In this document: one piece after another, positions 5,050 through 33,975 of the stretch
Position numbering within the stretch: the stretch's first letter is position 1
Layout of the letters: each line of letters opens with the position of its first letter
From: Comamonadaceae bacterium
GTDB lineage: Bacteria > Pseudomonadota > Gammaproteobacteria > Burkholderiales > Burkholderiaceae_C
Assembly: GCA_947447405.1 (NCBI GenBank)
Contig: CANFKQ010000004.1
Location: 1 to 37,275 of the forward strand
Direction of reading: 5' to 3'
DNA: 37,275 nt
Position numbers and translations under genes: made by a program
The notes under the pieces: model-generated
What the model was told of the DNA's origin: nothing
The model's input: only the letters and a program-made list of their open reading frames with translations
Database searches by the model: none

Positions 5050-5073
5050 GCACTGTTGCAGCTTGATGACGGC

Positions 5074-5091
5074 CTGTCACTGAATATTCAC
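5074..5091 (+). promoter_or_regulatory. Putative Pho box between ppk2 and the TRAP cluster
   Basis: CTGTCACTGAATATTCAC: GTCA and TTCA 11 bp apart; extra TGACAG/GTCAT half-sites flank it on both strands. Confidence 0.55.
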
Positions 5092-6027: not shown

Positions 6028-6036
6028 AAGCCGTGA

Positions 6037-7062
6037 ATGTTTAAATTATTGAAATCCTGTTTGCAAGTGTGCGTGGCCGTGTGCTTGTTGTGCGCACAAA
6101 CCGCTGTCTGGTCTGCGCCCGAAAAACAGCTGCGTTTGGGTACCTTGGCCCCTAAAAATTCGCTGTACCACCGCCAACTGATGGAGATTGGGGACGCGTG
6201 GCGTACTGCGCAAGGTGGTAATGCCAAATTTGTGGTCTATCCCGACGGCAGCCAAGGTGGTGAGACAGAATTGGCTCGTCGCATGCGGATTGGCCAGTTG
6301 CAAGGGGCCCTGCTGTCGGTGGTGGGTTTGCGCGAGATTGAGCCCTCGATTGCAGCTTTGCAATCCATGCCCTTGTTGTTTAAAACATGGGAGGAGGTGG
6401 ACTATGTGCGCGAAAAAATGCGTCCTGCCATGGAGAAAAAGTTTTTAGACAAAGGCTTCGTGGTGTTGGCTTGGGGCGACGCGGGTTGGGTGCGTTTCTT
6501 TTCGAAAGACGCGGCCTTCAGGCCTGAGGACTACCAAAAAATGAAGTTTTTTGCATGGGGCGGCGAAGCCGACCAGCAAGAGATCATGAAGAGCATGGGC
6601 TACACGCCCGTGCCTTTAGAGACCAGCGACATCTTGCCTTCGGTGCAAACTGGCATGATCAACGTGGTGCCGTCGACGCCTTACTTTGCCTTGGCCAGTC
6701 AGGTCTACACCATGGCTCCTAATATGTTGGAAATCAATTGGGCGCCCATTGTGGGGGCCTTGGTGGTGACCAAAAAATCTTGGGATGACATGACGCCTGA
6801 AACGCAGGCGGCTGTACGTGTGGCCAGCGACAAAGCAGGCGCACAAATTCGCACCAAGGCCCGTCAAGAAGTGGAGGAGGCTGTAGATGCCATGAAAAAG
6901 CGCGGCTTGGTGGTGAACAAACCCAACGCCGAACAAATGCGTGCGTGGAACGACTTGGCCGAAAAGCTGTACCCACGCATTCGCGGCACCTTGGTACCCG
7001 CTGAAACTTTTGATGAAGTGTTCCGTCACCTCAAGGCTTACCGCGCAGGTAAAGCCAAATGA
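6037..7062 (+). CDS. TRAP transporter substrate-binding protein (DctP family)
   Basis: Signal peptide, 'LRLGTLAPKNSLYHRQLMEIGDAWRTAQGGNAKFVVYPDGSQGGETELARRMRIGQLQGALLS' typical DctP fold. Confidence 0.9.
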   Translation: MFKLLKSCLQVCVAVCLLCAQTAVWSAPEKQLRLGTLAPKNSLYHRQLMEIGDAWRTAQGGNAKFVVYPDGSQGGETELARRMRIGQLQGALLSVVGLREIEPSIAALQSMPLLFKTWEEVDYVREKMRPAMEKKFLDKGFVVLAWGDAGWVRFFSKDAAFRPEDYQKMKFFAWGGEADQQEIMKSMGYTPVPLETSDILPSVQTGMINVVPSTPYFALASQVYTMAPNMLEINWAPIVGALVVTKKSWDDMTPETQAAVRVASDKAGAQIRTKARQEVEEAVDAMKKRGLVVNKPNAEQMRAWNDLAEKLYPRIRGTLVPAETFDEVFRHLKAYRAGKAK

Positions 7063-8864
7063 TGGGCCGGCTGTTGCGTGGTCTGACACAGGCTGACTCA
7101 TGGCTGGCTGGATTGGCAATGGTTTTGATGGCCTTGATTCCGCTGGTCGAAATTTTGTCGCGCCCCATGATGGGCAAGGGCATCGATAACGCGCCTGTGG
7201 TGGTGCAGCACTTGGGGCTACTCATGGCCATGGCCGGTGCGATTGCCGCTGAGCGCTTTGGTCACCTCACTAGCTTGGGTGTGATGGTGCCGCGCTTTTA
7301 TGCCGTGGGTCAGCTCGGAGCTGCTGCGGTATGTGGTGTGTTGGCTTGGGCAAGTGGCCAGTTGGTGCTGAGCGAAATGACGGCGGATCAATTTTTGGCC
7401 TACGGCATTCCCGTGTGGTGGTTTGAAGCGGCCATGCCGATTGGCTTTGCCTGTTTGGCTTTGAAATTGGGTGCACGTTGCAGCACACAGTGGCACCTGA
7501 AGTTGGCAGGGGCTTTTGTCGCGCCTCTGTTGGGTGTGTGGATGGCCTATAGCTTTGATGGCGAAGCGCTGCCGCTGTGGCCCTGGGTGATTGGGTTGGT
7601 GTTCTTACTGTCGTTTGGTGCGCCCATCTTTGCAGTCTTGGGTGGCTTGGCATTGGCCTTGTTTTGGCAAGATGGTTTGCCGCTGGCCTCTATTGCGCTG
7701 TCGCATTACCAAATCACGGTCAATCCATCGTTACCTGCTTTGCCACTGTTTACTTTTGCTGGATTGATCTTCGCTGGCACAGGTGCTGCGCAGCGATTGG
7801 GTGCTGTTTTTGTAGCCTTATTCGGCGGCGGACAGGCTGGCACCGTGATTGCTGCTACCGTGCTGTGTTCTTGCTTCACGGCCTTTACAGGCGGCAGTGG
7901 TGTGACGATTCTGGCTTTGGGCGGCTTGCTGTTGCCGCTATTACAAGGCGTGGGCTATCCAGAACGTAAAGGCATCAGTCTCATTACAAGTGCCAGCGCC
8001 CTCGGCGTTTTGTTGGCGCCGTCTGTGCCACTCATCATGTACGCCATCATTGCGCGTGTGCCCATCAACACCATGTTTTTGGCGGGCATCTTGCCTGCGG
8101 TGGTGATGGTGGTGTGCTTGCTGATCTTTGGTGGCTATTTGCGCCAAGCCGCGGTGCGTTCACAAGCAAGCACCCAAGCTAAATTCAACCTGTCTGCATT
8201 GCGTGATGCAGCGTGGATTGCCAAGTGGGAGTTGTTGGCGCCTGTGGTCGCCATTGGTTCGCTGGGCAGTGGCATGGCCACGCCGACTGAGAGCGCAGCG
8301 CTGACGGCCATCTACGCGGTGCTTACCCAATCGTGGGCGCATCGTGAGTTAGACCTCAAAAAGCTCGGTGCGTGTTTGTCGCAATGCACCCAAATCATTG
8401 GCGGGGTGATGTTGATTTTGGGCATGGCTTTGGGCTTGACCAACTACTTGGTCGATGCCGGAATTCCAGACTTGGCTACCGATTGGGTGCAAAGCGTCAC
8501 GCAAAACAAGTGGGTTTTTTTGTTGGCACTGAATGTGTTCTTATTTGCCGCTGGTGCGTTGATGGAAATTTATGCAGCCATCGTGGTGTTGGTGCCCTTG
8601 TTGTTGCCCTTGGCTACCAGCTATGGCATTGACCCCATCCACTTTGGCATCATCTTTTTGGCCAATATGGAAATGGGATTTTTGTGCCCTCCAGCAGGGA
8701 TGAATATTTACTTTGCGTCTGCGGTGTTCAAGCAACCCATTCGTACAGTGGCGGCCTCAGTGGCACCTGCCTTGATGGCTATCTTTGTGGGGACTTTGAC
8801 AATTTCTTGGTTGCCCTTGCTGGCCACAGGTTTGCCTAGTTGGTTTGCCTCGCTTATGCGTTGA
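7059..8864 (+). CDS. TRAP transporter permease, fused small and large (DctQ-DctM) subunits
   Basis: 601 aa polytopic; N-terminal DctQ-like 'VEILSRPMMGKGIDNAPVVVQHLGLLMAMAGAIAAERFGHL', C-terminal DctM-like 'FTAFTGGSGVTILALGGLLLPLL...GLLLAPSVPLIMYAIIARV'; ATGA overlap with the DctP gene. Confidence 0.9.
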   Translation: MMGRLLRGLTQADSWLAGLAMVLMALIPLVEILSRPMMGKGIDNAPVVVQHLGLLMAMAGAIAAERFGHLTSLGVMVPRFYAVGQLGAAAVCGVLAWASGQLVLSEMTADQFLAYGIPVWWFEAAMPIGFACLALKLGARCSTQWHLKLAGAFVAPLLGVWMAYSFDGEALPLWPWVIGLVFLLSFGAPIFAVLGGLALALFWQDGLPLASIALSHYQITVNPSLPALPLFTFAGLIFAGTGAAQRLGAVFVALFGGGQAGTVIAATVLCSCFTAFTGGSGVTILALGGLLLPLLQGVGYPERKGISLITSASALGVLLAPSVPLIMYAIIARVPINTMFLAGILPAVVMVVCLLIFGGYLRQAAVRSQASTQAKFNLSALRDAAWIAKWELLAPVVAIGSLGSGMATPTESAALTAIYAVLTQSWAHRELDLKKLGACLSQCTQIIGGVMLILGMALGLTNYLVDAGIPDLATDWVQSVTQNKWVFLLALNVFLFAAGALMEIYAAIVVLVPLLLPLATSYGIDPIHFGIIFLANMEMGFLCPPAGMNIYFASAVFKQPIRTVAASVAPALMAIFVGTLTISWLPLLATGLPSWFASLMR

Positions 8865-9597
8865 GCAACTCCAGTTGGTTGCTGACGCTGCGGTGTGACA
8901 AATGCGCCAAGGTTCTGCGCGAGTGCCCTTGTGGCGACAGCATGTCACCCGCGTGAACCTTGGCCTGAATTCCTGTTGCAGACATCACTTGGTGCAGCGA
9001 TTGCACAAAGCCGATGTCACCAATGAACGCTGCTTTCAAACACAGCGCCCCTGTGGCTGGGTTGGTGTAGCGGATGGCCAAGGGTTGTATTTGGATGTTG
9101 TGGTTGATGGCCGCTTCAAACAAGTTGGCATGAAAAAAACTAACTGCATTGCCTTCACTGCTGGTGCCTTCAGGAAAAACGGCTACGCAATAGCCATGGT
9201 GGAGAGCGCTAGAGACTTCATCCACCATACGTCGCGCAGAGCTGGGAGAGCCACGGTCGACAAACACCACGCCACAACCTTTGGCAATGCTGCCCACGAT
9301 GGGCCATGCTTTGACTTCGGTCTTGGCCACAAAAATGCTGGGTTGAATGGATTGAATGATGAGCGCATCCACCCAAGACACATGGTTGGCCACAAACATG
9401 AGTGGAACCGAAGACTGTTCAATTGGGTTCAGCGATGTTTCATGAAGCACTTGAATGCCAAGAATTTCAAGTGTGTGTTGTGACCAAGCTTTGATTTCTT
9501 CAAGCTTTCTTTCTCGGTTTAAACGAGGGAACTTGATCCACAAAATCCAGAAGGCATTGCCAAAGGCGTGTATGAGTCGTAAATATTTAATCAGCAT
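8854..9597 (-). CDS. 1-acyl-sn-glycerol-3-phosphate acyltransferase family; candidate lyso-ornithine lipid acyltransferase (OlsA-like)
   Basis: PlsC motifs 'VANHVSWVDALII' (NHxxxxD) and 'VFPEGTSSEG'; divergent from an OlsB-like gene. Confidence 0.85.
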   Translation of the reverse strand: MLIKYLRLIHAFGNAFWILWIKFPRLNRERKLEEIKAWSQHTLEILGIQVLHETSLNPIEQSSVPLMFVANHVSWVDALIIQSIQPSIFVAKTEVKAWPIVGSIAKGCGVVFVDRGSPSSARRMVDEVSSALHHGYCVAVFPEGTSSEGNAVSFFHANLFEAAINHNIQIQPLAIRYTNPATGALCLKAAFIGDIGFVQSLHQVMSATGIQAKVHAGDMLSPQGHSRRTLAHLSHRSVSNQLELLNA

Positions 9598-9672: not shown

Positions 9673-9739
9673 GCAATCTTCGCGGTTAATTCACATGGCC
9701 TGACAAGAATCAATGCCATTGAATTACCAAGGAGCCACC

Positions 9740-10588
9740 ATGAAAGAACTGCCTAACCCCACCATGCCGCTGTCGTTCATCGATGTGCCACGGGGGTCGC
9801 TTCATCGAAACGATCAAGACCTTCAAAAAGTTTCTGTCGCTGCCGAAAAAACTGAAACGCGCCCAGCCCTGATTGTTGAATGGGCGAAGCACCAAGACGA
9901 AGTTCGTGAGGCGCAGCGCTTACGCTATGACGTGTTTGCCAGCGAGATGGGCGCGCGTTTGAAAGACAGCATTCCTGGTCACGACATCGATTTGTTTGAT
10001 GACTTTTGCGAACACTTGATCATCCGCGACGATGCGACAGAACAAGTCATCGGTACCTATCGCGTGTTGACGCCAGCACAAGCCAAGCGTATTGGTAGCA
10101 CATATTCAGACTTGGAGTTTGATCTCACACGTTTGCGTCAATACCGCGAACGCATGGTCGAGCTGGGGCGCAGCTGTGTGCATCCAGACCACCGCCACGG
10201 TGGCGTGATCATGGCTTTATGGGGTGCGTTAGCTGAGTTCATGGTGCGCAACAAACTGGACGTGATGATTGGCTGTGCCAGTATTCCCATGTTGCACCAA
10301 GGGGTGGTGAGTGGCGAAGTGGCTGCCAGCATTTGGCACCAACTCAAGACAACGCATTTGGCAGGTGTTGAAAACCATGTCACGCCGCGCTTGGCGTTGC
10401 CCGTTGAGCAGTGGGAGGTGAACCCTGCGTTTGAACCTCCTGCATTGATCAAAGGTTATTTACGTTTGGGGGCCAAAGTACTGGGCGCACCCGCATGGGA
10501 TCCTGATTTCAACACAGCTGACTTGCCTATGTTGATGAAGATCAACGACATGCCACCGCGCTATCGCAAACATTTCTTGGGCGCTTGA
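9740..10588 (+). CDS. GNAT/OlsB-like N-acyltransferase (candidate L-ornithine N-alpha-acyltransferase)
   Basis: 'EVREAQRLRYDVFASEMGARL...DFCEHLIIRDDATEQVIGTYRVLTPAQAKRIGSTYSDLEFDL...ELGRSCVHPDHRHGGVIMALWGALAEFM' is OlsB/Acetyltransf_5-like; RBS AAGGAG before ATG 9740 rather than ATG 9713. Confidence 0.85.
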   Translation: MKELPNPTMPLSFIDVPRGSLHRNDQDLQKVSVAAEKTETRPALIVEWAKHQDEVREAQRLRYDVFASEMGARLKDSIPGHDIDLFDDFCEHLIIRDDATEQVIGTYRVLTPAQAKRIGSTYSDLEFDLTRLRQYRERMVELGRSCVHPDHRHGGVIMALWGALAEFMVRNKLDVMIGCASIPMLHQGVVSGEVAASIWHQLKTTHLAGVENHVTPRLALPVEQWEVNPAFEPPALIKGYLRLGAKVLGAPAWDPDFNTADLPMLMKINDMPPRYRKHFLGA

Positions 10589-11358
10589 TGCACTACAGAG
10601 CCATCTTTATTTCTGACCTGCACTTGGGCACGCCAGGGTGCCAAGCAGAGGCGCTGTTGGACTTTTTAAAGGACAACACCAGCGACTACTTGTACTTGGT
10701 GGGTGACATCATTGATGGATGGCAATTACGTCGCCGTTGGTATTGGCCGCAAGCGCACAACGATGTAATTCAAAAACTGTTGCGCAAAGCACGCAAAGGT
10801 TGTCGCGTCATTTATGTGCCGGGTAACCACGATGAGTTTGCGCGCCATTTCTTAGATCACCATTTCGGTGGCATTGAAGTGGTGGATGAAGCCGTGCATC
10901 AGACCGCGGATGGTCGTAAGTTATGGGTGATTCATGGCGATTACTTCGATGCCGTGGTTCAACAAGCCAAATGGCTGGCTTATGTGGGCGACTACTTGTA
11001 CGAGTTCACCCTCAAGCTCAACCGTTATTTGAATAACTTACGCGGTCGCATGGGCTTGCCTTATTGGTCCTTGTCTGCCTACCTCAAACACAAGGTGAAA
11101 AAGGCGCTGAATTACGTCACTGATTTTGAAAATGCGGTGGCGCACGAAGCTGCCAAGCATGGTTACCAAGGTGTGGTGTGCGGCCACATTCATCGCGCTG
11201 AAATTCGCGACGTGAATGGTGTTCTGTATTGCAACGATGGCGACTGGGTAGAAAGTCGTAGCGCTTTGGTTGAAGACGCGCAGGGTCAGCTGTCTTTGTT
11301 GTATTGGGAAACAAAACCCATCTTGATCGATAAACCTGAACTGTCCCAAGTTACATGA
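10588..11358 (+). CDS. Calcineurin-like metallophosphoesterase (annotators usually call LpxH-like; candidate PlcP phospholipase C)
   Basis: 'AIFISDLHLGTPGC', 'YLVGDIIDGWQLRRRWYW', 'YVPGNHDEFAR', 'WVIHGDYFD', 'VVCGHIHRAEIR' metallophosphatase motifs; start overlaps the upstream stop. Confidence 0.85.
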   Translation: MHYRAIFISDLHLGTPGCQAEALLDFLKDNTSDYLYLVGDIIDGWQLRRRWYWPQAHNDVIQKLLRKARKGCRVIYVPGNHDEFARHFLDHHFGGIEVVDEAVHQTADGRKLWVIHGDYFDAVVQQAKWLAYVGDYLYEFTLKLNRYLNNLRGRMGLPYWSLSAYLKHKVKKALNYVTDFENAVAHEAAKHGYQGVVCGHIHRAEIRDVNGVLYCNDGDWVESRSALVEDAQGQLSLLYWETKPILIDKPELSQVT

Positions 11359-12422
11359 AAATTGCCCTCATCACAGATGCTTGGCGTCCCCAAATCAATG
11401 GTGTGGTCACCACTTTGGTTGAGCTGGTGGATCAGCTCAACGCCAAAGGACATGTGGTGGAGGTGATTCATCCGGACTTATTTAAGACCCGTCCATGTCC
11501 TGGCTATGCAGGCATCGACTTGGCGGTGAAGCCTTACCCACAATTAGCGAAGCAATTGGATGCGTTTCAGGCCGATGTGATTCATGTGGCCACTGAAGGC
11601 CCCTTGGGATGGGCTGCACGAAAATATTGTTTGAAACACGGTTTGCCGTTCACCACTGCATTTCACACACGATTCCCTGAGGTGTTGAAAGCAGCTTTGC
11701 ATATTCCGCTGTGGATCGGTTATGCCATCTTTCGACACTTTCACAAACCATCCGCTGGGGTATTGGTTCCCACACAAGGTGTGATGCGTTTGCTGGACGG
11801 ATGGGGTTTTAAAAATTTGCGCAGCTGGACGCATGGTGTAGACATGCGTTTGTTTGGCTATGCCGACACGGTGGCGCATCACCCAGACTTGGACGATTTG
11901 CCACGCCCCATTGCTCTGTATGTGGGGCGCGTGTCATATGAGAAAAATATCGACAGTTTTCTGGCCATGCCATGGCACGGCAGCAAAGTCGTGTGTGGCG
12001 TTGGTCCTCTTGAGAAAGAGTTGAAAGACAAGTTCCATCATGTGCGTTGGTTGGGTGTATTGCCTCGCGATGTCTTAGCACGTGTGTATGCGAGCGCCGA
12101 TGTGTTCACATTTCCCAGCCGCAACGAAACCTTTGGCTTGGTCATGCTCGAAGCCATGGCGTGCGGTACGCCTGTGGCGGCTTATCCCGTGGATGGTCCG
12201 CTTGAAGTGCTGCGCCCTGAAGCAGATTACCCGCATCGGCGCAAAGGTGGCGTGCTGCACGAGGACTTGGCTTATGCCAGCCTAGAGGCCTTGAAAGTGC
12301 CGCGTTCAGAAGCGCACGCGCAGGCCCTGACGTTCAGTTGGGATGAGTCCACCCGATTGTTTGAGCAGCATGTGGTGCCCATTGATCGAGCGATTCGTTT
12401 GGGTGGTGAGATGCGTTTATGA
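11355..12422 (+). CDS. GT4-family glycosyltransferase (candidate Agt-type diacylglycerol glycosyltransferase)
   Basis: 'ALITDAWRPQINGVVTTLVELVDQL', 'HVATEGPLGWAARKYC', 'FTFPSRNETFGLVMLEAMACGTPVAAYPVDGPLEVL'; ATGA overlap with the metallophosphoesterase gene. Confidence 0.9.
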   Translation: MKIALITDAWRPQINGVVTTLVELVDQLNAKGHVVEVIHPDLFKTRPCPGYAGIDLAVKPYPQLAKQLDAFQADVIHVATEGPLGWAARKYCLKHGLPFTTAFHTRFPEVLKAALHIPLWIGYAIFRHFHKPSAGVLVPTQGVMRLLDGWGFKNLRSWTHGVDMRLFGYADTVAHHPDLDDLPRPIALYVGRVSYEKNIDSFLAMPWHGSKVVCGVGPLEKELKDKFHHVRWLGVLPRDVLARVYASADVFTFPSRNETFGLVMLEAMACGTPVAAYPVDGPLEVLRPEADYPHRRKGGVLHEDLAYASLEALKVPRSEAHAQALTFSWDESTRLFEQHVVPIDRAIRLGGEMRL

Positions 12423-12845: not shown

Positions 12846-12929
12846 ATCTGTACGTCACTGAAATGACTTTTTTTCTTCTTATTCCTTTCATCATGTTCTG
12901 CAACGATGAACGCATTCAGGAGAAAATTT

Positions 12930-14351
12930 ATGCGAATCACCGTCATCGGTTCTGGTTATGTAGGTTTGGTCACAGGTGCCTGTTTGTCCGACCTTGGTTT
13001 TAAAGTGCTGTGTCTTGACAAGGACGAAGACAAGGTCAAGATGCTGCAAGCGGGCGAGGTGCCGATTTACGAGCCTGGACTGAAAGAGTTGTTGTCGCGT
13101 AACCATGCCGATGGACGCATTCGGTTCACCAGTGATGCGCATGAGGCCATTGACCACGGCGATATTTTGTTCATCGCGGTGGGCACGCCTGCACAAGAAG
13201 ATGGCTCAGCCGATCTGGGCCATGTGCTGTCGGTTGCCTCGATGGTGGGGCGCAATCTCAAAGACTTTAAGCTCGTTGTGAACAAATCCACTGTGCCTGT
13301 GGGTACGGCTGATCGTGTGCGTGCTGCAGTCAAACACGAGCTCACACAGCGTGGCATGTCGGATGAAATGTTTGACGTGGTGTCTAACCCCGAGTTCTTG
13401 AAAGAGGGTGCGGCCATTGACGACTTCATGCGTCCGGACCGCATCGTCGTGGGCATTGACGATGGCATTCACCATGAAAAAAGCCAACGCATGATGGGTG
13501 ATTTGTATGCCAGCTTTAACCGTCACCATTCACGCACCGTGTGGATGGATGTGCGCAGTGCTGAGCTGACCAAATACGCTGCCAACGCCATGTTGGCTAC
13601 GCGCATTTCGTTCATGAACGAAATTGCCAACTTGGCCGATGCCTTGGGCGCAGATGTGGACCAAATTCGCCGTGGCATTGGTGCGGATAACCGCATTGGC
13701 TATAGCTTTTTGTATGCGGGTTGTGGTTATGGCGGCAGCTGCTTTCCCAAGGACACGCAAGCCCTGGTCAGCACTGCTCAGGCACACGGCCAGCACATGA
13801 GTGTGGTCAGTGCCACTGAGCAGGTGAACGAGCGCCAAAAGACTTTGTTGGTCGACCGTTTGGTCAAGCGTTTGGGCCATGACTTAAGTGGTCGAAAAAT
13901 TGCGGTGTGGGGCTTGGCCTTTAAACCGAACACCGATGACATGCGCGAAGCACCCAGCCGTGTGGTCATCAAAAGCTTGTTAGAGCGCGGTGCCCATGTC
14001 ACAGCGTATGACCCTGTCGCAGGTCACGAGGCCATGGTCGCTTTGAAGCTCGATTGCGCAGGGCAAGAAGCGTTGTTGAAGAACTTCACCTTGGTCGCCC
14101 ACGACATGGATGCTTTGGAGGGTGTGGATGCACTGATGGTGCTGACCGAGTGGAAGAATTTCCACAACCCTGACTTCCAAGCCATGAAGTTGAGCATGCG
14201 CACGCCCTACATTTTGGATGGACGCAATTTGTACAACCCCGATGCCTTGGCTGATTTAGGCATCGCCTATCAGGGGGTGGGTCGTCGCAACGAATTGGTC
14301 AATCTGACCGTTGATCCGGTCGCTTTGGAGACTTCAGCACTCAATGCCTAA
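12930..14351 (+). CDS. ugd: UDP-glucose 6-dehydrogenase
   Basis: '[36 protein letters not shown]', '[18 protein letters not shown]', '[17 protein letters not shown]'; RBS AGGAGA before ATG 12930. Confidence 0.95.
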
Positions 14352-15549
14352 AGGGTTTTACTTTCTGATTGGTGCCCAGTTCGCTTCTGGACTTGCTGAC
14401 AATGCGCTGCTGATTTTAGGAATTTACTTTCTCAAAGAGCAGGGCTATCCGGGGTGGTGGGCACCACTCTTGAAGTTTTCGTTGACCTTGGCTTATGTGC
14501 TCTTGGCCTCTGTGGTGGGGCCCTTAGCTGATGCATTTTCCAAGAGCCGTTTGATGGCTGGTATGAATGCACTCAAGATCGTGGGCGTGCTGATGTTATG
14601 CGTAGGCGCGCAGCCTTTATGTGCCTTTGCCGTCATTGGTTTGGCCGCCTCGGTATATGCCCCTGCGAAGTATGGTTTGGCGACCGAGTCTGTGCCTGCA
14701 CGTTGGTTGGTGCGAGCCAACGCTTGGATAGAAGTGTCGATGGTGTTGTCGGTTATTTTTGGCATCGCCCTTGGCGGTACGCTCACGGGTCTGTCAGAGG
14801 CAAGCGCCTCAGTTGACCTTCTGATTCGTACCCAAACTTTGCCCGCCATGGCCGTGGTGGTGGGGGTGTATCTGGTGGCTGCTGTTTTGAATGTGGGATT
14901 GATGCCCATGGGGCAGCGGTCCAACCTCGCGCCTTTCACGTGGCATGCATTGCGTGTATCGACGTTTTGGAAATCGAATCAAAAACTTTGGCGTGATCCA
15001 TTGGGTGGCGTTTCTCTATATGTCACCACCTTGTATTGGGGTGTGGGCGCTGTGATGCAATTTTCTGTACTGGTGTGGGCTCAAAGTTCATTGGGAATGA
15101 GCCTTAAATTGGGTGCGTACTTGCAGGCCTTGGTGGCGCTGGGCGTGATTGCAGGTGCCTACATGGCAGGACGCTCTTTCAAACTGCATTCTGCGAGGCA
15201 GGCGTTGCCTTGGGGTTTGTTGCTGGCGGTATTGTTGCCGGTGATGGTGATGGTCACCGATCTGTGGATTGCCGTTCCGCTTTTGTTGTGCGTGGGTGTG
15301 GCTGGAGGCATGCTGCTGGTGCCCATGAATGCCTTGCTCCAGCATAGAGGCATGCTAGTTTTGAGCGCTGGCCGCTCGATTGCCGTGCAAGGTTTCAACG
15401 AAAACCTTTGCGTGTTGTTGATGCTTGCCTCCTACAGTGCGTTGCTGGCGTTCGGCATGCCGTTGAGTGTGATCATGTTGCTCATGGCCGTTGTATTGTT
15501 TGCAGGCATAGCGCCGCTGTGCCTGCTTCTTTGGCGAAAGCTGCGCTGA
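14344..15549 (+). CDS. MFS transporter, lysophospholipid transporter LplT-like
   Basis: '[65 protein letters not shown]' LplT-like N-terminus; overlaps the ugd 3' end. Confidence 0.85.
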
Positions 15550-16743
15550 TTAGCTGTGTTCGATGGTGCGCTGGAAGATGGTCTCAACCTGACCTGCAAT
15601 TTCATCCCAGCCCAAGTGCGCCACGCTGGCACGGGTAAATTCACGCGCTTGACGCAATGTGGTTTGATCGTTTGTGATCTCCAACGCGCGCTGTATGTAG
15701 GTGTGAGGCTCGGCACTGTCAATCAACCAGCCGTTTTTTTGATCTGTGACAAAGTCACTGGCCGCTGCGCAATCAAAGGCCAACACGGGGGTGGCACTGG
15801 CCAGTGCTTCTAAGGTGACGTTGCCAAAGGTTTCGGTCAAGCTTGGAAACAACAGTAAATCAGCACTTGCATACAGCGTGCTCAGTTGCTCGTGGCTGCA
15901 CATGCCCATGAAGATGGCATCTGGGCATTTGGCTTCGGTGATGGCGCGCATGGGGCCGTCACCCGCAAAAACCATCTTGACGGAACGACCCGCAGCAATC
16001 AGGGCTTGGTAGGTTTGAATGGTGAGCTCTAGATTTTTTTCAGCCGCCAATCGCCCCACAGACAGTAGGACCAAGGTGCCTGACGAAGCGCGCCAATGGG
16101 CACGCATGTCTGCGCTTCGCTTGTCAGGGTGAAATAGCTGTGTGTCCACACCGCGTGCGACCACTCTGAGATTTTTGAAGCCCATGGCTTCGAGTTGAAA
16201 TTTCATCGCTTGCGTGGGCACCATGGTGAAGGCCGTGCGGTTGTGAAACTTGCGCAGGTACGCCACGATGGGTTTGCTCAACCAGCCCACGCCGTAGTGT
16301 TGGCAGTAGCTGTGAAAGTTGGTGCGGAAATCTGAAGTGACAGGCAAACGCAGAGTTTGTGCCGCTTGCAAGGCCGACCAACTCAGCGGTCCTTCTGTGG
16401 CAATGTGCACCAGGTCGGGTCGTTTGGTACTCCAAGCTTTGATGAGGGCTTTCTTGCTGGGTAAACCCAGCTTGAGCTGTGGGTACCGAGGGATGGGTAG
16501 GCCGCGCAACAGCAATTCGGACCAGCCCGTTTGTTCGTGTCCCGCATCATGCTTGTCTTGCCGTGGGCGAATCAGCTGGATGGTGTGGTGTCGCAGGCCT
16601 AGATGATGAATCAATTTTGACAGCGTGACTGCAACACCATTGACTTCGGGTGGCCATGTTTCTGTCACAACAGCAATGCGAAGAAAGCGCTGTGCGGGTT
16701 CAAAGTTTTCAACGGTAATCGGCGTACTGGGTGATAGTTCCAT
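15550..16743 (-). CDS. Second GT4-family glycosyltransferase
   Basis: 'RIAVVTETWPPEVNGVAVTLSKLIHHLGLR', 'HIATEGPLSWSALQAA', 'LLLFPSLTETFGNVTLEALASATPVLAFD'. ORF open to 16788; ATG 16743 is a plausible start. Confidence 0.9.
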   Translation of the reverse strand: MELSPSTPITVENFEPAQRFLRIAVVTETWPPEVNGVAVTLSKLIHHLGLRHHTIQLIRPRQDKHDAGHEQTGWSELLLRGLPIPRYPQLKLGLPSKKALIKAWSTKRPDLVHIATEGPLSWSALQAAQTLRLPVTSDFRTNFHSYCQHYGVGWLSKPIVAYLRKFHNRTAFTMVPTQAMKFQLEAMGFKNLRVVARGVDTQLFHPDKRSADMRAHWRASSGTLVLLSVGRLAAEKNLELTIQTYQALIAAGRSVKMVFAGDGPMRAITEAKCPDAIFMGMCSHEQLSTLYASADLLLFPSLTETFGNVTLEALASATPVLAFDCAAASDFVTDQKNGWLIDSAEPHTYIQRALEITNDQTTLRQAREFTRASVAHLGWDEIAGQVETIFQRTIEHS

Positions 16744-16827
16744 GGCGCTATGTTCGCCATTGAATTTAACAACTTGATGACATGACACGCATTTGAGGTT
16801 TTTATTTCATTCGTGTTGGGGCGCACT

Positions 16828-16845
16828 TTGTCATGGTTTTTTCAC
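16828..16845 (+). promoter_or_regulatory. Putative Pho box
   Basis: TTGTCATGGTTTTTTCAC: GTCA and TTCA 11 bp apart, upstream of the 16896 gene. Confidence 0.55.
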
Positions 16846-16895
16846 ATGACACGCCCATGATTGGCAGGTCTTGAAACACATGAGGAACATCAGCC

Positions 16896-17504
16896 GTGAA
16901 AAACTTTTTAGAAGCCTTGCGTATTCAGCGTTGGGATGATCACCGTTATTACCACCACTGCCGCATCAACCAGTCGTTGCATTTGCTCAGTGCAGTTTGC
17001 TTTTTGATCTCGTATGTCTTGTTGTTTGTCAATCCAGCTTGGGCAGCTTTGTTGGCTTGGTTGGTGTCTATGGTCGCTAGGCAGTCGGGGCATTTCTTTT
17101 TTGAGCCCTTGGGCTATGACCATGTGAACGAAGCGACGAATGACTTTAAAGAAGAAATCAAAGTGGGTTTCAACCTGCGTCGCAAAGTGGTGTTGCTCAG
17201 TCTGTGGGTCTTGTTGCCTTTGGTGATTTACTACTCCCCAGGCATGTTCCACGTGGTGCCAACACATGAAACATGGGTAGAGTTTTCAGAAGCTGTGGGT
17301 TATTCGTGGTTGGCCTTAGGGGTAGGTGGTTTGCTGTTTCGCACGATTCATTTGTGCTTCATCAAAGATGTGCAAACTGGCTTGGTGTGGATGACCAAAA
17401 TTCTCACAGATCCATTCCATGACGTGTACCTGTATCACAAGGCACCATGGCAGTTGTTACGTGGTCAACGTTTTGACGAAGAATTTTTGCATGCCTCTCA
17501 GTAA
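16896..17504 (+). CDS. Multi-pass membrane protein, possibly Mpo1/DUF962-like
   Basis: 202 aa with several TM segments and conserved-looking His clusters ('RYYHHCRINQSLHLLSAV', 'RQSGHFFFEPLGYDHVNEATNDFKEEIKVGFNLRRK'); family call is tentative. Confidence 0.55.
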   Translation: MKNFLEALRIQRWDDHRYYHHCRINQSLHLLSAVCFLISYVLLFVNPAWAALLAWLVSMVARQSGHFFFEPLGYDHVNEATNDFKEEIKVGFNLRRKVVLLSLWVLLPLVIYYSPGMFHVVPTHETWVEFSEAVGYSWLALGVGGLLFRTIHLCFIKDVQTGLVWMTKILTDPFHDVYLYHKAPWQLLRGQRFDEEFLHASQ

Positions 17505-17580: not shown

Positions 17581-19221
17581 TTACCGAAATAAAGTTTCTT
17601 TCAAGATGCTTCGACGGATACGTTTGTTGGTGAGTTCGGGGGAATGCCACCACCAGCCATCATTTTTCATTTGCATGGCGGCCATAACAAAGCGTTGCAC
17701 CACTGTTTCAAAGTCATCGTCGCTGTAGTTCAGGCTGAAAATCAAACGACCTGTACCAACCCAGCTCAATGCCAAACCATGGATGCGCAAGTAGTACTGC
17801 AACATCCAGTGGTAGCGGCTCGGTTGTGTGTAAAACAGAGTCCACACGCTCGACATATTTGCAGCTTGCAGCGGGATGTTGTTGGCTTGCATGACGCTGT
17901 TGAAATGCTGTACGCGAACATTCCAGCGTTCATCCAGTCCTTCGTACACGGCTTGAATTTCAGGTGTTTCTATTTGGTCTAAAAAAGCAGACATGGCACC
18001 CATCACCACGGGATGCTCTTTGAAGGTACCACGTGCAAAACAAATGTCAGCAGGGCGGTCGGCACGGAAGCGGTGCATCCATTCTTTTTTGCCGCACACC
18101 ACACCCACGGGGAAGCCACCGCCCAGTGTTTTGCCATAAGTCACCATGTCGGCTTTGACACCGAAATATTCTTGTGCGCCACCGGGTGCCAAACGAAAAC
18201 CTAAGAAGACTTCATCAAATATCAGCACCACGCCGTTGTCGGTGCATGCTTGACGCAGTTTGTGCAACCATGCGGTGTAAGCCTGTCGGTCATATGCTGC
18301 TTTTCGACTGCCGTCCACCAAGGTGGTGTCACCCGGTGCATTGGCGTTGGGGTGCAAGGCTTGCAGTGGATTCACCAGCACGCAGGCAATGTCTTTGCGT
18401 GTGCGAATCACGTCTAAGCTGCGTTCACTCATGTCGCTGAGTGTGTAGGTTTCGCGTGGCGGCATGGGGTTGCCAGGGCCTGGTTGCACGTCTTCCCACC
18501 AGCCGTGATACGCGCCACAAAAACGCACCAAGTTTTTGCGCTTGGTGTGGTAGCGCGCCAAACGCACGGCTTGCATCACAGCTTCGGTGCCCGACATGTG
18601 AAACGACACCTCGTCCATGCCAGATATCTTTTTGAGCCGCTCTGCATTGCTGGCAACGCACGGGTGATAAGCACCCAGTGTGGGGCCTAGCGATTGCATT
18701 GTTGCCATACCGTCGGCCATGGTCTTTTTATAAAAATCTGCACCAAACACGTTTACGCCATATGAACCGGTTAGGTCATAAAACGACTGACCGTCCAAAT
18801 CTGTCACGTACACGCCGGTGGCTGATTGCAAGAAGGAGCCGACCTTTAAATGCTCTTGCACCAAGGGGCTGAACTGAAAAGGTACTCGGTAAGCTGAAAT
18901 GAATTGCATGTCCGAGATGGTTTCACGGGCCGTCGCTGTGGCTTGAATGCTCAATGGATGGCGCGCTTTGAGAACTTCGGAGATTTTGAAAAATGCTTGG
19001 CGCCTAAGGTTTTGTATCTCGAAAGGCGCGTTGTCACATTTAAAGAACATTTGTTCATCAAAATGGTAGCCGGGTAGCAGGCGGGCCAAACGTTTGGCCA
19101 TGCGTGAGTGGCCTGCAAGTGATCGATGCTTGGCGCGTGAGAGTTGTAGTCGTCGATAGATAGACGGGGCTAATGTGGCCATTGCGCTCAATGCGCCCAA
19201 ACTCATCCAAGTGGTATTCAC
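17581..19221 (-). CDS. Class-III PLP aminotransferase, glutamate-1-semialdehyde aminomutase-like, with N-terminal membrane-anchor-like segment
   Basis: 'VSFHMSGTEAVMQAVRLAR', 'FCGAYHGWWEDV', 'LIFDEVFLGFR', PLP-Lys region 'DMVTYGKTLGGGFPVGVVCGKKEWM'; N-terminus 'WMSLGALSAMATLAPSIYRRLQL' hydrophobic then basic; GTG start with AAGGAA RBS. Confidence 0.88.
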   Translation of the reverse strand: MNTTWMSLGALSAMATLAPSIYRRLQLSRAKHRSLAGHSRMAKRLARLLPGYHFDEQMFFKCDNAPFEIQNLRRQAFFKISEVLKARHPLSIQATATARETISDMQFISAYRVPFQFSPLVQEHLKVGSFLQSATGVYVTDLDGQSFYDLTGSYGVNVFGADFYKKTMADGMATMQSLGPTLGAYHPCVASNAERLKKISGMDEVSFHMSGTEAVMQAVRLARYHTKRKNLVRFCGAYHGWWEDVQPGPGNPMPPRETYTLSDMSERSLDVIRTRKDIACVLVNPLQALHPNANAPGDTTLVDGSRKAAYDRQAYTAWLHKLRQACTDNGVVLIFDEVFLGFRLAPGGAQEYFGVKADMVTYGKTLGGGFPVGVVCGKKEWMHRFRADRPADICFARGTFKEHPVVMGAMSAFLDQIETPEIQAVYEGLDERWNVRVQHFNSVMQANNIPLQAANMSSVWTLFYTQPSRYHWMLQYYLRIHGLALSWVGTGRLIFSLNYSDDDFETVVQRFVMAAMQMKNDGWWWHSPELTNKRIRRSILKETLFR

Positions 19222-19277
19222 AGTCGGTTTCCTTGTGTAAGAGGTGATCCTTTGTATTTAAATTAAGTGACAAGACG

Positions 19278-20153
19278 ATGAAGATTCGAAATATATTTCA
19301 AACGTGGCTCTTGCAAGAAGACCTTAATTTTTTATTGACCAACCGCATTCCACGTATCACGTTGACGCGCTTCATGGGCTGGTGGAGCCAGCGGCGCAAT
19401 CCTTGGATCGTCATGGGCTCGATTGCCGTGTGGCGTTGGTTTAGCGATCTAGACTTGACAGAGTCCAAGCAACAAAAATTTACCAGTCTGCATGAATGCT
19501 TTACACGTGAGCTGCGACCAGGCTTGCGCCCGATTGACCCTCGCCCTGACGTCATCAGCTCGCCGTGCGACTGTATCTTGGGCGCGTGTGGTGACATCCA
19601 CGACGGCATGGTGTTTCAAGCCAAGGGCTTTCCGTACACGATAAACAGCCTGTTGAGTTCGCCTGGTTTGATACAGCGTTGGCCCCATTTACTAGAGGGG
19701 GGCACATTTGTGACGATGCGCTTGACAAGCAGCATGTATCACCGATTTCATGCGCCATGCGATGCGCATATGAATCATGTGACCTACATCTCGGGTGACA
19801 CGTGGAACGTTAATCCGATTGCTTTGACGCGTATTAAAGAGTTATTTTGCAAAAATGAGCGCGCCATATTGCAAATGCAAACGACGACAGGCGTGCCATT
19901 TTTGATCGTGCCGGTGGCAGCCGTTTTGGTGGCCAGCATGCGTTTTCATGCGGTGGATGTGTTGCTGAACCTACGTTACAAAGGTCCCAACGACATTCCT
20001 TGCAATGCTGACTACAGCAAGGGTCAAGAGATGGGCTGGTTTGAACACGGTTCCACCATTTTGATGTTTGTGCCGCGGGGCTATTCGCTGGCCGAGGGCT
20101 TAGAAAACGGTAAGCGCATCCAAATGGGACAGGCTTTGCTGAAGCGGTTGTGA
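19278..20153 (+). CDS. Phosphatidylserine decarboxylase family protein
   Basis: 'SPCDCILGACGDI', 'GGTFVTMRLTSSMYHRFHAPCDAHMNHVTYISGDTWNVNPIAL', C-terminal 'MGWFEHGSTILMFVPRG' with the GS(T) pyruvoyl self-cleavage motif. Confidence 0.85.
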   Translation: MKIRNIFQTWLLQEDLNFLLTNRIPRITLTRFMGWWSQRRNPWIVMGSIAVWRWFSDLDLTESKQQKFTSLHECFTRELRPGLRPIDPRPDVISSPCDCILGACGDIHDGMVFQAKGFPYTINSLLSSPGLIQRWPHLLEGGTFVTMRLTSSMYHRFHAPCDAHMNHVTYISGDTWNVNPIALTRIKELFCKNERAILQMQTTTGVPFLIVPVAAVLVASMRFHAVDVLLNLRYKGPNDIPCNADYSKGQEMGWFEHGSTILMFVPRGYSLAEGLENGKRIQMGQALLKRL

Positions 20154-20193: not shown

Positions 20194-20211
20194 ATGTCAC
20201 GCCTTTGTCAT
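20194..20211 (+). promoter_or_regulatory. Putative Pho box upstream of ppk1
   Basis: ATGTCACGCCTTTGTCAT: GTCA half-sites 11 bp apart, with a third GTCA 9 bp upstream (20187). Confidence 0.65.
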
Positions 20212-24956: not shown

Positions 24957-24974
24957 ATGTCATATCTTTGTCAT
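24957..24974 (+). promoter_or_regulatory. Putative Pho box upstream of phoX
   Basis: ATGTCATATCTTTGTCAT: two near-perfect half-sites 11 bp apart, then GGCTTAAAGT as a -10 candidate. Confidence 0.7.
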
Positions 24975-26948: not shown

Positions 26949-28337
26949 TCACCTTTGGCTCAATGTCTCTAGCTCGGTGCAGATTTGCGCCAAGCTGGGG
27001 CGCTGAGTTGGCGTTTCTTGCAAGCACTGTTGCGCGAGTCGAGTCAAGGCTTGAAGTTGAGATGTATGTAAGGGTGCCGTCGCCTTGTGTGATGTCGCTG
27101 TGTTTTTCTCCGCTTCTGCTGCCGAGTGGAGAGAGGAGGCGTCGCACTGCAAGGCCAGCTCTTCCAGCAAGCAACCCAACGCACGTGCTTCGAGTTTTTC
27201 TAAACCTTGCGCAAGTGTTGCATCGTTCACATCAAAAAATGCAGCCGCGCCAAAGTCGCTCAGCAGCGCATCGCCATCAGACGTGTGCAAGATGTTGTGC
27301 GCATAGAAGTCACCATGCAAGATGCCGCGTGTGTGCAAGTGTTGCGCCGCAGAGGCCATGCCTTTTGCAATGCGCAGTGTGGCAGGCCAGTTGAAGCGTT
27401 TGCCTTTCGCATACACATCGCGTGTGCAACTCTCTAGGTTGGGTGGGCTTGCGAGGTTGCCAAACTCAGGTGGAATCAGCGGCATGACCAAGGCTTGTTT
27501 GTCGTCTGGATGCTTGGTCACGCGGGCCATGGCAGACACCAAATGCGGATGTGCGCCTGCGTGCATGCAGGCTGCCATTTCGCAGTCAGGCCAACCATCG
27601 CTCGTGACGGCGCCTTTGAACAGCTTGACGGCCACAGTTTGTTCACCTTTGTCCGTGCGGCGTGTGGCTTGATGAATCACACCAGAAGCGCCTTCGCCCA
27701 GCTGGTGTTGCAGCTGTAGCTCAGGCCATGCCATGTGCGGCGTGGGCGCGTTGGCCAAGGCTTGAGCTTCAAGCGCTTGTGCAAATGGGTTACCCGCAAA
27801 CGCCAACCAGGTGAGACGTGGCAGTTGCAGTAGCCACTCGGGAAATTCGGCCAGTTGATTGGCCGAAATGCGCAGTAGCTCTAGGTTTTTGCAATGTGCC
27901 AGTTCTGATGGCAAGGCTTTGAGTTGATTGCCTGCCAGCATGAGCTTTTGCATCTGAGTGCATCGCCCAATCTCAGACGGTAAGGCGGTGAGTGCGTTGT
28001 CGGTCAAGATGAGCCAACGTAAGCGAGGCGGCAACGCATGGGGTGATACATGCTTGATGCGGTTCGCCTTAAAACCCATCATGCTGAGTTGGTCGCATTG
28101 ACCCAGCACTTCGGGGAGTTCGGTGAAGCGGTTGTCCGAGCAAAAAATCACGCGCAACTTATGCAAGCGTGGCAGATCGTCGGGTAAGGCCTTCAGTTGA
28201 TTGCCCGATAAATCTAAGATTTCCAACGAGTCTGCCAACTTGAAAATTTCGCGTGGAAACTCGGTCAAGCCGCAGCGCAGTTGCAGGCGTTGAATGCCTG
28301 TCAGTTCGCCGCGTCGCAGTTGTTCAAGGGTGTGCAC
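26949..28337 (-). CDS. Leucine-rich-repeat protein with C-terminal protein kinase domain
   Basis: LRRs ('LEILDLSGNQLKALPDDLPRLHKLRVIFCSDNRFTELPEVLG') then kinase motifs 'VAVKLFKGAV', 'RGILHGDFYAHNILHTSDGDALLSDFGAAAFF'. Confidence 0.9.
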   Translation of the reverse strand: MHTLEQLRRGELTGIQRLQLRCGLTEFPREIFKLADSLEILDLSGNQLKALPDDLPRLHKLRVIFCSDNRFTELPEVLGQCDQLSMMGFKANRIKHVSPHALPPRLRWLILTDNALTALPSEIGRCTQMQKLMLAGNQLKALPSELAHCKNLELLRISANQLAEFPEWLLQLPRLTWLAFAGNPFAQALEAQALANAPTPHMAWPELQLQHQLGEGASGVIHQATRRTDKGEQTVAVKLFKGAVTSDGWPDCEMAACMHAGAHPHLVSAMARVTKHPDDKQALVMPLIPPEFGNLASPPNLESCTRDVYAKGKRFNWPATLRIAKGMASAAQHLHTRGILHGDFYAHNILHTSDGDALLSDFGAAAFFDVNDATLAQGLEKLEARALGCLLEELALQCDASSLHSAAEAEKNTATSHKATAPLHTSQLQALTRLAQQCLQETPTQRPSLAQICTELETLSQR

Positions 28338-31697: not shown

Positions 31698-33890
31698 TTA
31701 GATGACTTTGAAATGGTGTGTGCCATCGCGGGCCAACTGTTCGACCAAACCAAACTCCCAATCGAGGTAGCCCTGCATGGCTTCCACGGGGTTGTTGGTG
31801 CCTTCATAGGGGCGGCGGTAGCGGTCCACGCGATCGACGGCCATTTGGTGGTCGCCAGTTTGCAGCTTGCCCCCAGCGGCCACCCAAGCGGCGTTGCCGC
31901 CTTCGAGCCACACCACATCCACACCAGCTTTGACAGCGGCTTGCACATCAGCCAAGGCAAAGCGCGACACGCTGCCGTTTTGGCAAGTCAGCACATAGCG
32001 GTAGCCTTTGTGTGCAGCCGTGAGTGATTCTTTGAGCTGCGTGCGCAGCACCCACCACGCGCTGTGGATGTGGCCTTTGATGTATTGGGCGCTGGTGCTG
32101 AAGTCGAGTACCACGGTGTGGCTGTTGCGGTCGGCCAGCCAAGCTTTGACTTGTTCGACTTTCACGGACGTGACCTTGCCTTGTGTCTCGGGCAAGCGCA
32201 GCGGCGATGTGTCGGTGTGTGTGAAGTCTTCGGCAGTCAGACCTTGGACCACATACACCTCCCAGCCCATTTGGGCCAGCCATGAGGCGGACATGTTGGC
32301 GCGTGTGCCATCGGTGTCGCACAGTACGATGCGTGCGCCGCGCACGGCGGCTTGGTGGTCAGTCTCTTGCACCAGTTGGCCACCAGGGGCGCTGCGTGCG
32401 CCGGCCACATGGCCTGCTGCGTATTCTTCAGGCGTGCGCACGTCAAAGAAGTAAGTGGTGCGCGTAGGGTCGGCTAGCCATGCGTTGACGTCGTCCATGC
32501 GGGTGCGTTTCACGCCAGCGCGCATGGCCACTGCAAATGCACTGGCAGCGGCTTTGGCTCGGGTGGCATCGTCCACCTCGGGGAAATGTTCGCTCGCACC
32601 TTTGACCAATTCTTGGCCCGCCAAGGTCCAACCAATCGTGCCATTGCGCAGGGCGCTCACGGGGTTGGGGATGCCTGAGTTGATGAGCGACTGCGTGCCG
32701 ATGATGCTGCGCGTGCGGCCCGCGCAGTTGACGATGATGCGCGTGGTGGCGTTAGGCGCCAACGCGCGTGCACGCAACACCAACTCAGCCCCAGGCACGC
32801 TGATACCACTGGGAATGCTCATGGTTTGGTACTCGTCAAAACGGCGAGCATCCATCACCACCACATTGGCTTTTGACTCAATGAGGGCTTTGACTTCTTG
32901 CGCCGAGAGCGACGGGGTGTGGCGTTTGGACTCGACCAACTCACCAAACGATTTGCTAGGCACGTTGACATCACGGAACACTTCGCCGCCTGCGTCTTGC
33001 CAACCTTGGAGGCCACCGGCGAGCAAATGCACGTTCGTGTAGCCCATGCGTTTCAAGGTACGGGCAGCGGGGAGGGCGAGGTCGTCGCCATTGAAGGCGG
33101 TGCCGTACACCACGATGAAGGTGTCGAGGCGAGGGATGCGTGTCCACGCATCCGCTTCGATGCGGCCCAGTGGCAGGTTGGCTGCAAACAGAGGGTGGCA
33201 TTGAGCAAACGGGTCTTCTTCTCGGACGTCGAGGATGGCAATTTCCTGGCGTTGCAAGAGCGTTTCGCGAATGCGGGCGTAAGGCACGAGGGGAAACTCA
33301 AGCTGCGCTTCAGCCTTCGCATTGCTGTAGCCTGAAATAAATTCTTTTGCCGTGCCGTCTTCATGGAACACATGGCGGCTGACCTTGCCAATGTTGGCGC
33401 CGTACACATGGATGCTGATCGAGGCTTGGTCGCTGTGAGCGTTACACACGCGGTGCACATCGCCAATGGTGGGCGATACGGCTTCGACATCGCCTGCTTC
33501 AAGGCGGTCTTGTTCGCCGCTGGGCTTCCAATGGCCTTGTGCATTTTTGGCAAAGGGTTGGCAAAGCTCAGCGCCGCGCAGCATGCCGATCATGCCCCAG
33601 ACGGTGTGGTCGTGGATGGGCGTGGCTTGGCCGGGGCCCCACACAAAACTCACCACCGAAAAACGGTCGTCTGGGTCGGCGTAAAGCAAGAACTGTTGGT
33701 AGCGCTCGGGGTTGGGCTGGGCGTATTCGTTAGGTAGCCAATCGTCTTGAGCCACCAGCTCGGCCAGCAGGGGTTTACCGTTCGCCAAAATGGCGGCTTC
33801 GTCGGCAGTGCTTTTGAGCAAGGCATCGAGTTGGGTGACGAGGTGTTGAAGGCGGGGCGTGTCTGCGAGCTGGGGTGTACGTAGGGTCAT
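31698..33890 (-). CDS. Cysteine dioxygenase-like cupin fused to tandem rhodanese domains
   Basis: N-terminal 'VSFVWGPGQATPIHDHTVWGMIGMLRG' (thiol dioxygenase cupin HxH); rhodanese-like repeats with 'CAGRTR', 'CDTDGTR', 'CQNGSVSR' active-site-like loops. Start ATG 33890 preferred. Confidence 0.87.
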   Translation of the reverse strand: MTLRTPQLADTPRLQHLVTQLDALLKSTADEAAILANGKPLLAELVAQDDWLPNEYAQPNPERYQQFLLYADPDDRFSVVSFVWGPGQATPIHDHTVWGMIGMLRGAELCQPFAKNAQGHWKPSGEQDRLEAGDVEAVSPTIGDVHRVCNAHSDQASISIHVYGANIGKVSRHVFHEDGTAKEFISGYSNAKAEAQLEFPLVPYARIRETLLQRQEIAILDVREEDPFAQCHPLFAANLPLGRIEADAWTRIPRLDTFIVVYGTAFNGDDLALPAARTLKRMGYTNVHLLAGGLQGWQDAGGEVFRDVNVPSKSFGELVESKRHTPSLSAQEVKALIESKANVVVMDARRFDEYQTMSIPSGISVPGAELVLRARALAPNATTRIIVNCAGRTRSIIGTQSLINSGIPNPVSALRNGTIGWTLAGQELVKGASEHFPEVDDATRAKAAASAFAVAMRAGVKRTRMDDVNAWLADPTRTTYFFDVRTPEEYAAGHVAGARSAPGGQLVQETDHQAAVRGARIVLCDTDGTRANMSASWLAQMGWEVYVVQGLTAEDFTHTDTSPLRLPETQGKVTSVKVEQVKAWLADRNSHTVVLDFSTSAQYIKGHIHSAWWVLRTQLKESLTAAHKGYRYVLTCQNGSVSRFALADVQAAVKAGVDVVWLEGGNAAWVAAGGKLQTGDHQMAVDRVDRYRRPYEGTNNPVEAMQGYLDWEFGLVEQLARDGTHHFKVI

Positions 33891-33975
33891 GGCTTGTCTC
33901 TGGTTTTTTGGCACTAGGGCCATTCCCAACATTGTTTCACAGCGACAATCGAATTCAGTCCCTTTGGAGATACTT

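Follow-up and report, generated by a model that had tools for sequence, protein, structure and literature searches.

A conserved cassette with an aminotransferase and a Psd-family decarboxylase in a Pho island of a Comamonadaceae bacterium

The role of a divergent gene pair in a Pho island, encoding a class III PLP aminotransferase (AT3) and a Psd-family pyruvoyl decarboxylase (Psd2), was analysed. The whole stretch of DNA studied, termed the window, is 37,275 nucleotides long and sits on contig C4 of a draft genome (G000, Comamonadaceae bacterium, 83.6% complete); Limnohabitans isolates are among the named relatives of this DNA, at 78-90% identity. An earlier note had proposed that the pair may build or tailor an amino-containing head group, possibly of a phosphorus-free lipid. 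Pi-limited bacteria exchange phospholipids for phosphorus-free lipids, and to our knowledge the established routes (PlcP-Agt, OlsBA/OlsF and BtaAB) use neither an aminotransferase nor a Psd. A word search of a 2024 aminolipid review and of two PlcP papers found no mention of an aminotransferase, a decarboxylase or an Mpo-like protein. The cassette described below was also not found in the literature searched, which mostly excluded subscription journals. As a gene set it is undescribed; lipid remodelling under Pi stress as such is already known.

The gene pair, its island and probable Pho control

The gene pair was real and placed as claimed. AT3 occupies 17581-19221 on the minus strand (546 aa, GTG start, Aminotran_3) and psd2, a specialised paralogue, occupies 19278-20153 on the plus strand (291 aa, PS_Dcarbxylase). 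The coordinates and the Pfam matches agreed, as did the gap of exactly 56 bp between the two start codons (19222-19277), which forms the divergent AT3/psd2 promoter region. On the other side of AT3 lie mpo (16896-17504, plus strand), encoding a Mpo1-like (DUF962-type) multi-helix membrane protein, and GT4b (15550-16788, minus strand), encoding a GT4 glycosyltransferase nearest to lipid-acceptor enzymes; the region between them (16789-16895) is likewise a divergent promoter. These genes are preceded by lplT (14311-15549, plus strand) for the lysophospholipid transporter LplT (NCBIfam 398 bits, cut-off 297), which is a kept neighbour in Burkholderiales, and by ugd (12906-14351, plus strand) for a UDP-glucose 6-dehydrogenase-type enzyme of UDP-GlcA supply, which adjoins the cassette in many relatives too.

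The label of a Pho island given to this region was appropriate. It contains an olsA-like lyso-ornithine-lipid O-acyltransferase gene (8854-9597, minus strand; 124 and 104 bits against the NCBIfam OlsA models, under cut-off), an olsB-like ornithine N-acyltransferase gene (9713-10588, plus strand; 167 and 151 bits against the NCBIfam OlsB models, likewise under cut-off), a gene for a calcineurin-family phosphoesterase (10585-11358, plus strand) and, immediately 3' of it, an agt-like GT4 glycosyltransferase gene (11355-12422, plus strand). The phosphoesterase is presumably PlcP, a name based on the plcP-agt arrangement familiar from the literature. The island also holds PhoR (above cut-off), Ppk1, Ppk2, a SixA-like protein, Ppx and PhoX. 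Exact Pho boxes, with no half-site mismatches, are present on the plus strand 5' of ppk1 (20194-20211, ATGTCACGCCTTTGTCAT) and 5' of phoX (24957-24974, ATGTCATATCTTTGTCAT).

The Pho box sought was the PhoB-type direct repeat of TGTCA with an 11-bp period. The GT4b/mpo promoter carries a conserved box at 16828-16845 (TTGTCATGGTTTTTTCAC). Over 18 diverged loci the best score in this promoter averaged 10.11 against 8.05 for dinucleotide-shuffled sequences, and no shuffle set reached 10.11. Comparison with 60 permuted half-sites placed both overlapping Pho half-site registers at the top, and the 6-bp gap was a sharp optimum. The AT3/psd2 promoter gave a weaker result. Its Pho-box-like site (19267-19284, minus strand) overlaps the psd2 start codon, and the first Pho test looked strong partly because this codon contributed; when start codons were left out, the score was 8.04 against 7.45 for shuffled sequences. 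A window-wide search for TGTCA-N6-TGTCA with two mismatches returned 39 sites with 43 expected, showing no excess over chance, and only exact sites and the comparative promoter test were counted as evidence. The shared 56-bp promoter claimed earlier for the pair was therefore upheld in its geometry, while the Pho signal within it is weak. From promoter sequence, AT3 and psd2 are likely to be under Pho control, although this is less well shown than for GT4b and mpo.

Conservation and co-inheritance of the cassette

The two families were found together in the same neighbourhood far beyond this genome. About 100 Burkholderiales loci, from Limnohabitans, Hydrogenophaga, Variovorax, Leptothrix, Sphaerotilus, Paucibacter, Hylemonella and others, showed the usual order (ugd)-(lplT)-GT4b-mpo-AT3-psd2 on the same strands, with GT4b as a neighbour in most of them. 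The mpo-AT3-psd2 triad persists outside Burkholderiales with other partners, in other gammaproteobacteria and in alphaproteobacteria. Ugd, LplT or a PmtA-like methyltransferase is often encoded with the cassette. In the alphaproteobacterial loci an Agt-like glycosyltransferase and a PmtA-like phospholipid N-methyltransferase are encoded 5' of mpo; on a Sphingomonas parapaucimobilis plasmid psd2, AT3, mpo and a methyltransferase gene are consecutive.

Operon and fusion forms were also observed. At two loci (L190 and L181) AT3, a large GT4 gene, psd2 and mpo are all co-directional; in L190 AT3 and the GT4 gene overlap by 4 bp and the gap from the GT4 gene to psd2 is 1 bp. Two other loci encode AT3 and the Mpo-like domain in a single ORF of about 740 aa (L192, 8265-10493; L193, 8907-11123), which adjoins btaA/btaB-like genes, plcP and agt. 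A genome search did not find Psd2 in these two fusion genomes or in one further genome (G185). At locus L188 the neighbours of the cassette are plcP, an OlsF-like gene and, by reading of the sequence, PhoU/PstB-like genes, and across unrelated lineages PlcP, OlsB or OlsF, Pst/PhoU and PhoX are cassette neighbours. The linkage of AT3 and psd2 that the earlier note had put forward was thereby supported by operons and co-inheritance, but not the pair as the unit, since the cassette comprises AT3, Psd2, the Mpo-like protein and GT4. Present annotations of these genes read, for example, 'aminotransferase class III-fold enzyme' and 'archaetidylserine decarboxylase'.

Several further ORFs around the cassette that had looked conserved (clusters 3, 5, 8, 9, 10, 14 and 15) were rejected as shadow frames of cassette or neighbour genes. 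In seven loci (L179, L180, L181, L182, L190, L196 and L197) the GT4 protein of the operon is about 900 aa long; its long N-terminal part is unrecognised by Pfam and looks PHP-phosphoesterase-like by eye.

The inheritance of the three families was compared in 101 relatives. Of these, 44 carried AT3, 42 carried Psd2 and 41 carried the Mpo-like protein; in the 57 relatives without AT3 neither Psd2 nor the Mpo-like protein was found. Judging from the coordinates, relatives missing a member of the triad are incomplete genomes or have cut contigs. Among 399 Pseudomonadota genomes drawn evenly, AT3 occurred in 26 and Psd2 in 26, both being present in 25; one of the two non-shared cases was on a 4.4-kb contig and the other in a 78% complete genome. 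The genomes in both profiles are related, which makes a simple significance test unsuitable, and the pattern covers many families.

Features of the encoded proteins

Psd2 matched the Pfam family PF02666 (PS_Dcarbxylase) with an E-value of 1.4e-53 (182 bits, cut-off 22) and the equivalog model TIGR00163 (PS_decarb) with 159 bits, above its cut-off of 111.75. It shares with E. coli Psd the fold family and an N-terminus of membrane-association type. The GST autocleavage motif noted earlier is kept, as HGST (residues 257-260) instead of the usual LGST, and H257-G-S-T is invariant across 32 relatives. A second Psd is encoded on contig C68 of the window genome (194 bits for PF02666); Psd2 as the only copy would have counted against the earlier proposal. 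A further Psd, full-length or short and above the Pfam cut-off, was found in every sampled genome carrying Psd2. One genome (G063) had appeared to carry Psd2 as its only Psd; this was rejected, as a second, short Psd is present.

In phylogeny Psd2 formed its own clade, separated from canonical Psds with a support of 100/100. The residues of 32 Psd2 relatives were compared with those of 10 canonical copies in E. coli numbering. D90, H144, H147 and S254 of the GST motif were retained in 32 of 32 relatives. The same 32 carry the switches Y137R, S166N and L252H, and 31 of them carry D142M and F165W; all 10 canonical copies have Tyr137 and Ser166. In E. coli Psd the side chains of Tyr137 and Ser166 hydrogen-bond the phosphate, H144 reads the carboxylate, and the Tyr137/Ser166 double mutant has much reduced activity (PMC7952604). 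The retention of the catalytic residues together with the change of both phosphate-contact side chains indicates, at the level of sequence, that the decarboxylation chemistry is kept and head-group recognition altered. Arg137 by itself does not prove a new substrate, because about 15% of PSD family members have arginine at this position (PMC7952604).

AT3 matched Aminotran_3 with an E-value of 1.8e-32. It shares the class III fold and the PLP motif GKTLGGG with HemL/GSAM, whereas its score against the HemL model TIGR00713 (174.9 bits in the window, 172.7 in the genome search) is far from the equivalog cut-off of 527.3. A profile search revealed a bona fide HemL on contig C122 of the window genome (565 bits); AT3 as the sole HemL would have counted against the earlier proposal. 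That Psd2 and AT3 are not housekeeping copies is supported. In 36 sequences the PLP residues of AT3, including K364, SGTEA and YHGWW, do not vary. Among solved structures, the profile comparison put the mycosubtilin synthase AMT domain first (6kfm, 238 bits), compared with 160 bits for GSAM. A Foldseek search with the predicted structure (mean pLDDT 88.7) placed the AMT domain at ranks 1-2, with a TMt of 0.85 for 6kfm. In sequence and in predicted fold AT3 resembles this AMT domain more than GSAM; it differs from it in being stand-alone, in having a hydrophobic N-terminal helix and in lacking the ACP/NRPS context. The mycosubtilin domain aminates a beta-ketothioester with Gln as the amine donor (PMC3870968).

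The hydrophobic N-terminal extension of AT3 was found to be a genuine feature of the family. The model contains an N-terminal helix at residues 3-30; Kyte-Doolittle hydropathy peaks at 1.23 in the window protein and mostly at 1.4-2.4 across 37 relatives. The hydrophobic segment is followed by a basic motif, an arrangement that is conserved among the relatives, and it may have a membrane role.

The Mpo-like protein matched PF06127 (Mpo1-like) with an E-value of 1.3e-4 and 22.5 bits, and Mpo-like proteins of the cassette scored 22.5, 22.2, 21.8 and 20.6 bits, all below the cut-off of 24. Within the family alignment, which includes the fusion proteins, H16, H20, H29, H66 and E70 are invariant and may form a metal site. 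The predicted structure is all-helical (pLDDT 90), and a fold search of the PDB with it returned no match. The weak Pfam match and the helical membrane character are shared with yeast Mpo1/DUF962, and the conserved His pattern may be shared as well, but the protein is longer than the Pfam domain and its function is putative. The name of Mpo1-like proteins refers to the oxidation of 2-hydroxy fatty acids, and by analogy with this name only, an Fe-dependent oxidation may be suggested. The NCBIfam models that scored best with GT4b, GlcN-PG synthase at 139 bits and MGlcDAG synthase at 92 bits, stayed under cut-off.

Proposed lipid tailoring and its alternatives

AT3, Psd2, the Mpo-like protein and GT4 are proposed to form one membrane-lipid tailoring pathway, induced at least partly by PhoB under Pi scarcity, with a probably phosphorus-free amino(glyco)lipid as the product; we consider this proposal to have an even chance of being right. 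The four proteins were read as one pathway because of the conserved neighbourhood, the co-inheritance, the operon and fusion forms, the AT3 helix, the Psd2 residue changes and the Pho boxes of GT4 and mpo. AT3 would install an amine on a lipid-borne carbonyl. Psd2 would generate its own pyruvoyl group and take CO2 off a serine-like amino-acid head group, yielding a primary amine. GT4 would glycosylate the lipid, with a donor possibly supplied via Ugd, and the Mpo-like protein would carry out an Fe-dependent oxidative step. In alphaproteobacteria the amine may be methylated by the PmtA-like enzyme. The end product would be an amine-bearing (glyco)lipid that is free of phosphorus and replaces PE; both the precise head group and the order of the reactions are guesses.

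Given the context, the most parsimonious product would be a phosphorus-free amino(glyco)lipid. The amino head group suggested earlier agrees with the lipid context of Pi starvation and with the altered phosphate contacts of Psd2, and agrees less readily with AT3, whose nearest solved relative is a beta-ketoacyl aminotransferase domain. Against lipid tailoring stand the score of Psd2 over the PS_decarb cut-off, the occurrence of Arg137 in other PSDs, the sub-threshold Mpo match, the weak Pho signal between AT3 and psd2, the three genomes where Psd2 was not found (both fusion genomes and G185) and the failure to find BtaA in the window genome. We know of no gene that supplies the serine-like phosphorus-free substrate proposed for Psd2. 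More tentatively, and with some doubt, the product may belong to an undescribed class of phosphorus-free lipids, whose amine is installed by the membrane-anchored, AMT-like AT3 and exposed by a Psd2 that no longer uses phosphatidylserine. Such a route would be a phosphate-free counterpart of PS to PE (and on to PC) in Alpha- and Gammaproteobacteria.

Two known lipid routes are comparable. The PlcP-Agt remodelling, which makes the glycolipids MGDG and GADG under Pi starvation, shares the kind of island, a GT4 lipid glycosyltransferase, UDP-GlcA supply and Pho boxes; the cassette adds an aminotransferase, a Psd paralogue and the Mpo-like protein. The BtaA-BtaB betaine lipid pathway also leads to a phosphorus-free amine-bearing lipid, and btaA/btaB-like genes adjoin the two AT3-Mpo fusions, but BtaA (DUF3419) was not found in the 83.6% complete window genome, occurred in only 15 of 101 relatives and was not found in most AT3 carriers. 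DGHS, the BtaA product, was accordingly rejected as a general substrate of Psd2. As a separate observation, BtaA is seemingly commoner in listed genomes of the genus that lack AT3 (7 of at least 20) than in those that carry AT3 (5 of 40), as though the two lipid routes partly replaced each other.

The alternative that survives best is that Psd2 is a Pi-stress isoenzyme converting PS to PE, while AT3 and the Mpo-like protein do a separate lipid job alongside. The retained catalytic residues, the PS_decarb score and the natural Arg137 of other PSDs are all in keeping with it, and the PmtA-like neighbour in alphaproteobacteria suits a conversion of PE to PC. It is nevertheless considered rather unlikely, as every sampled genome already has another Psd, both phosphate-contact side chains are invariantly changed, and Psd2 tracks AT3 and Mpo near-perfectly and shares their operon in some lineages.

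The resemblance of AT3 to the mycosubtilin AMT domain raises a second alternative, in which AT3 would act as a beta-ketoacyl aminotransferase and produce a 3-amino fatty acyl or sphingoid-like chain, so that the amine of the cassette lipid would lie in its hydrophobic part. The beta-ketothioester substrate of the AMT domain, the fatty acid oxidation in the name of Mpo1 and the Sphingomonas parapaucimobilis cassette, in whose vicinity a class I/II PLP enzyme and an acyl carrier protein are encoded, are consistent with such a chain. This neighbourhood is a single case, however; in the remaining loci examined, no ACP or fatty acid synthesis gene was a recurrent neighbour, and a Psd has no obvious role on a beta-amino acid, which makes the explanation improbable. 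Salvage or degradation of amino head groups freed from phospholipids by PlcP, with no new lipid built, is highly improbable: PlcP often adjoins the cassette and class III enzymes include lyases acting on aminoethyl compounds, but AT3 is a poor match to the aminoethylphosphonate lyase model (68 bits, cut-off 525), three partners are of membrane-associated types and the GT4 is of anabolic lipid type.

If the tailoring pathway proposed here is true, it would mean one more class of lipid and a new specificity for Psd, and its genes could serve as a marker set in the ecology of Pi stress. The carriers include common freshwater genera such as Limnohabitans and amount to about 6.5% (26/399) of the even Pseudomonadota draw.

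Some further features were observed around the cassette. In Sphingomonas parapaucimobilis (L212, 16365-25647) the class I/II PLP enzyme, the acyl carrier protein and an NAD(P)H-binding protein are encoded about 10 kb from the cassette and may form a cluster for sphingolipid synthesis; a desaturase and LptFG are encoded between this group and the cassette. A TRAP transporter with a TAtT component (4981-8864 in the window) recurs near the cassette or island in four other loci (L054, L098, L106 and L126). The window, in a genome of freshwater betaproteobacterial type, also encodes on its minus strand a Tyr/Ser/Thr protein kinase domain fused to a leucine-rich-repeat protein (26949-28337) and a 744-aa protein (31698-33932) with a cysteine-dioxygenase-like N-terminal part and four rhodanese domains.
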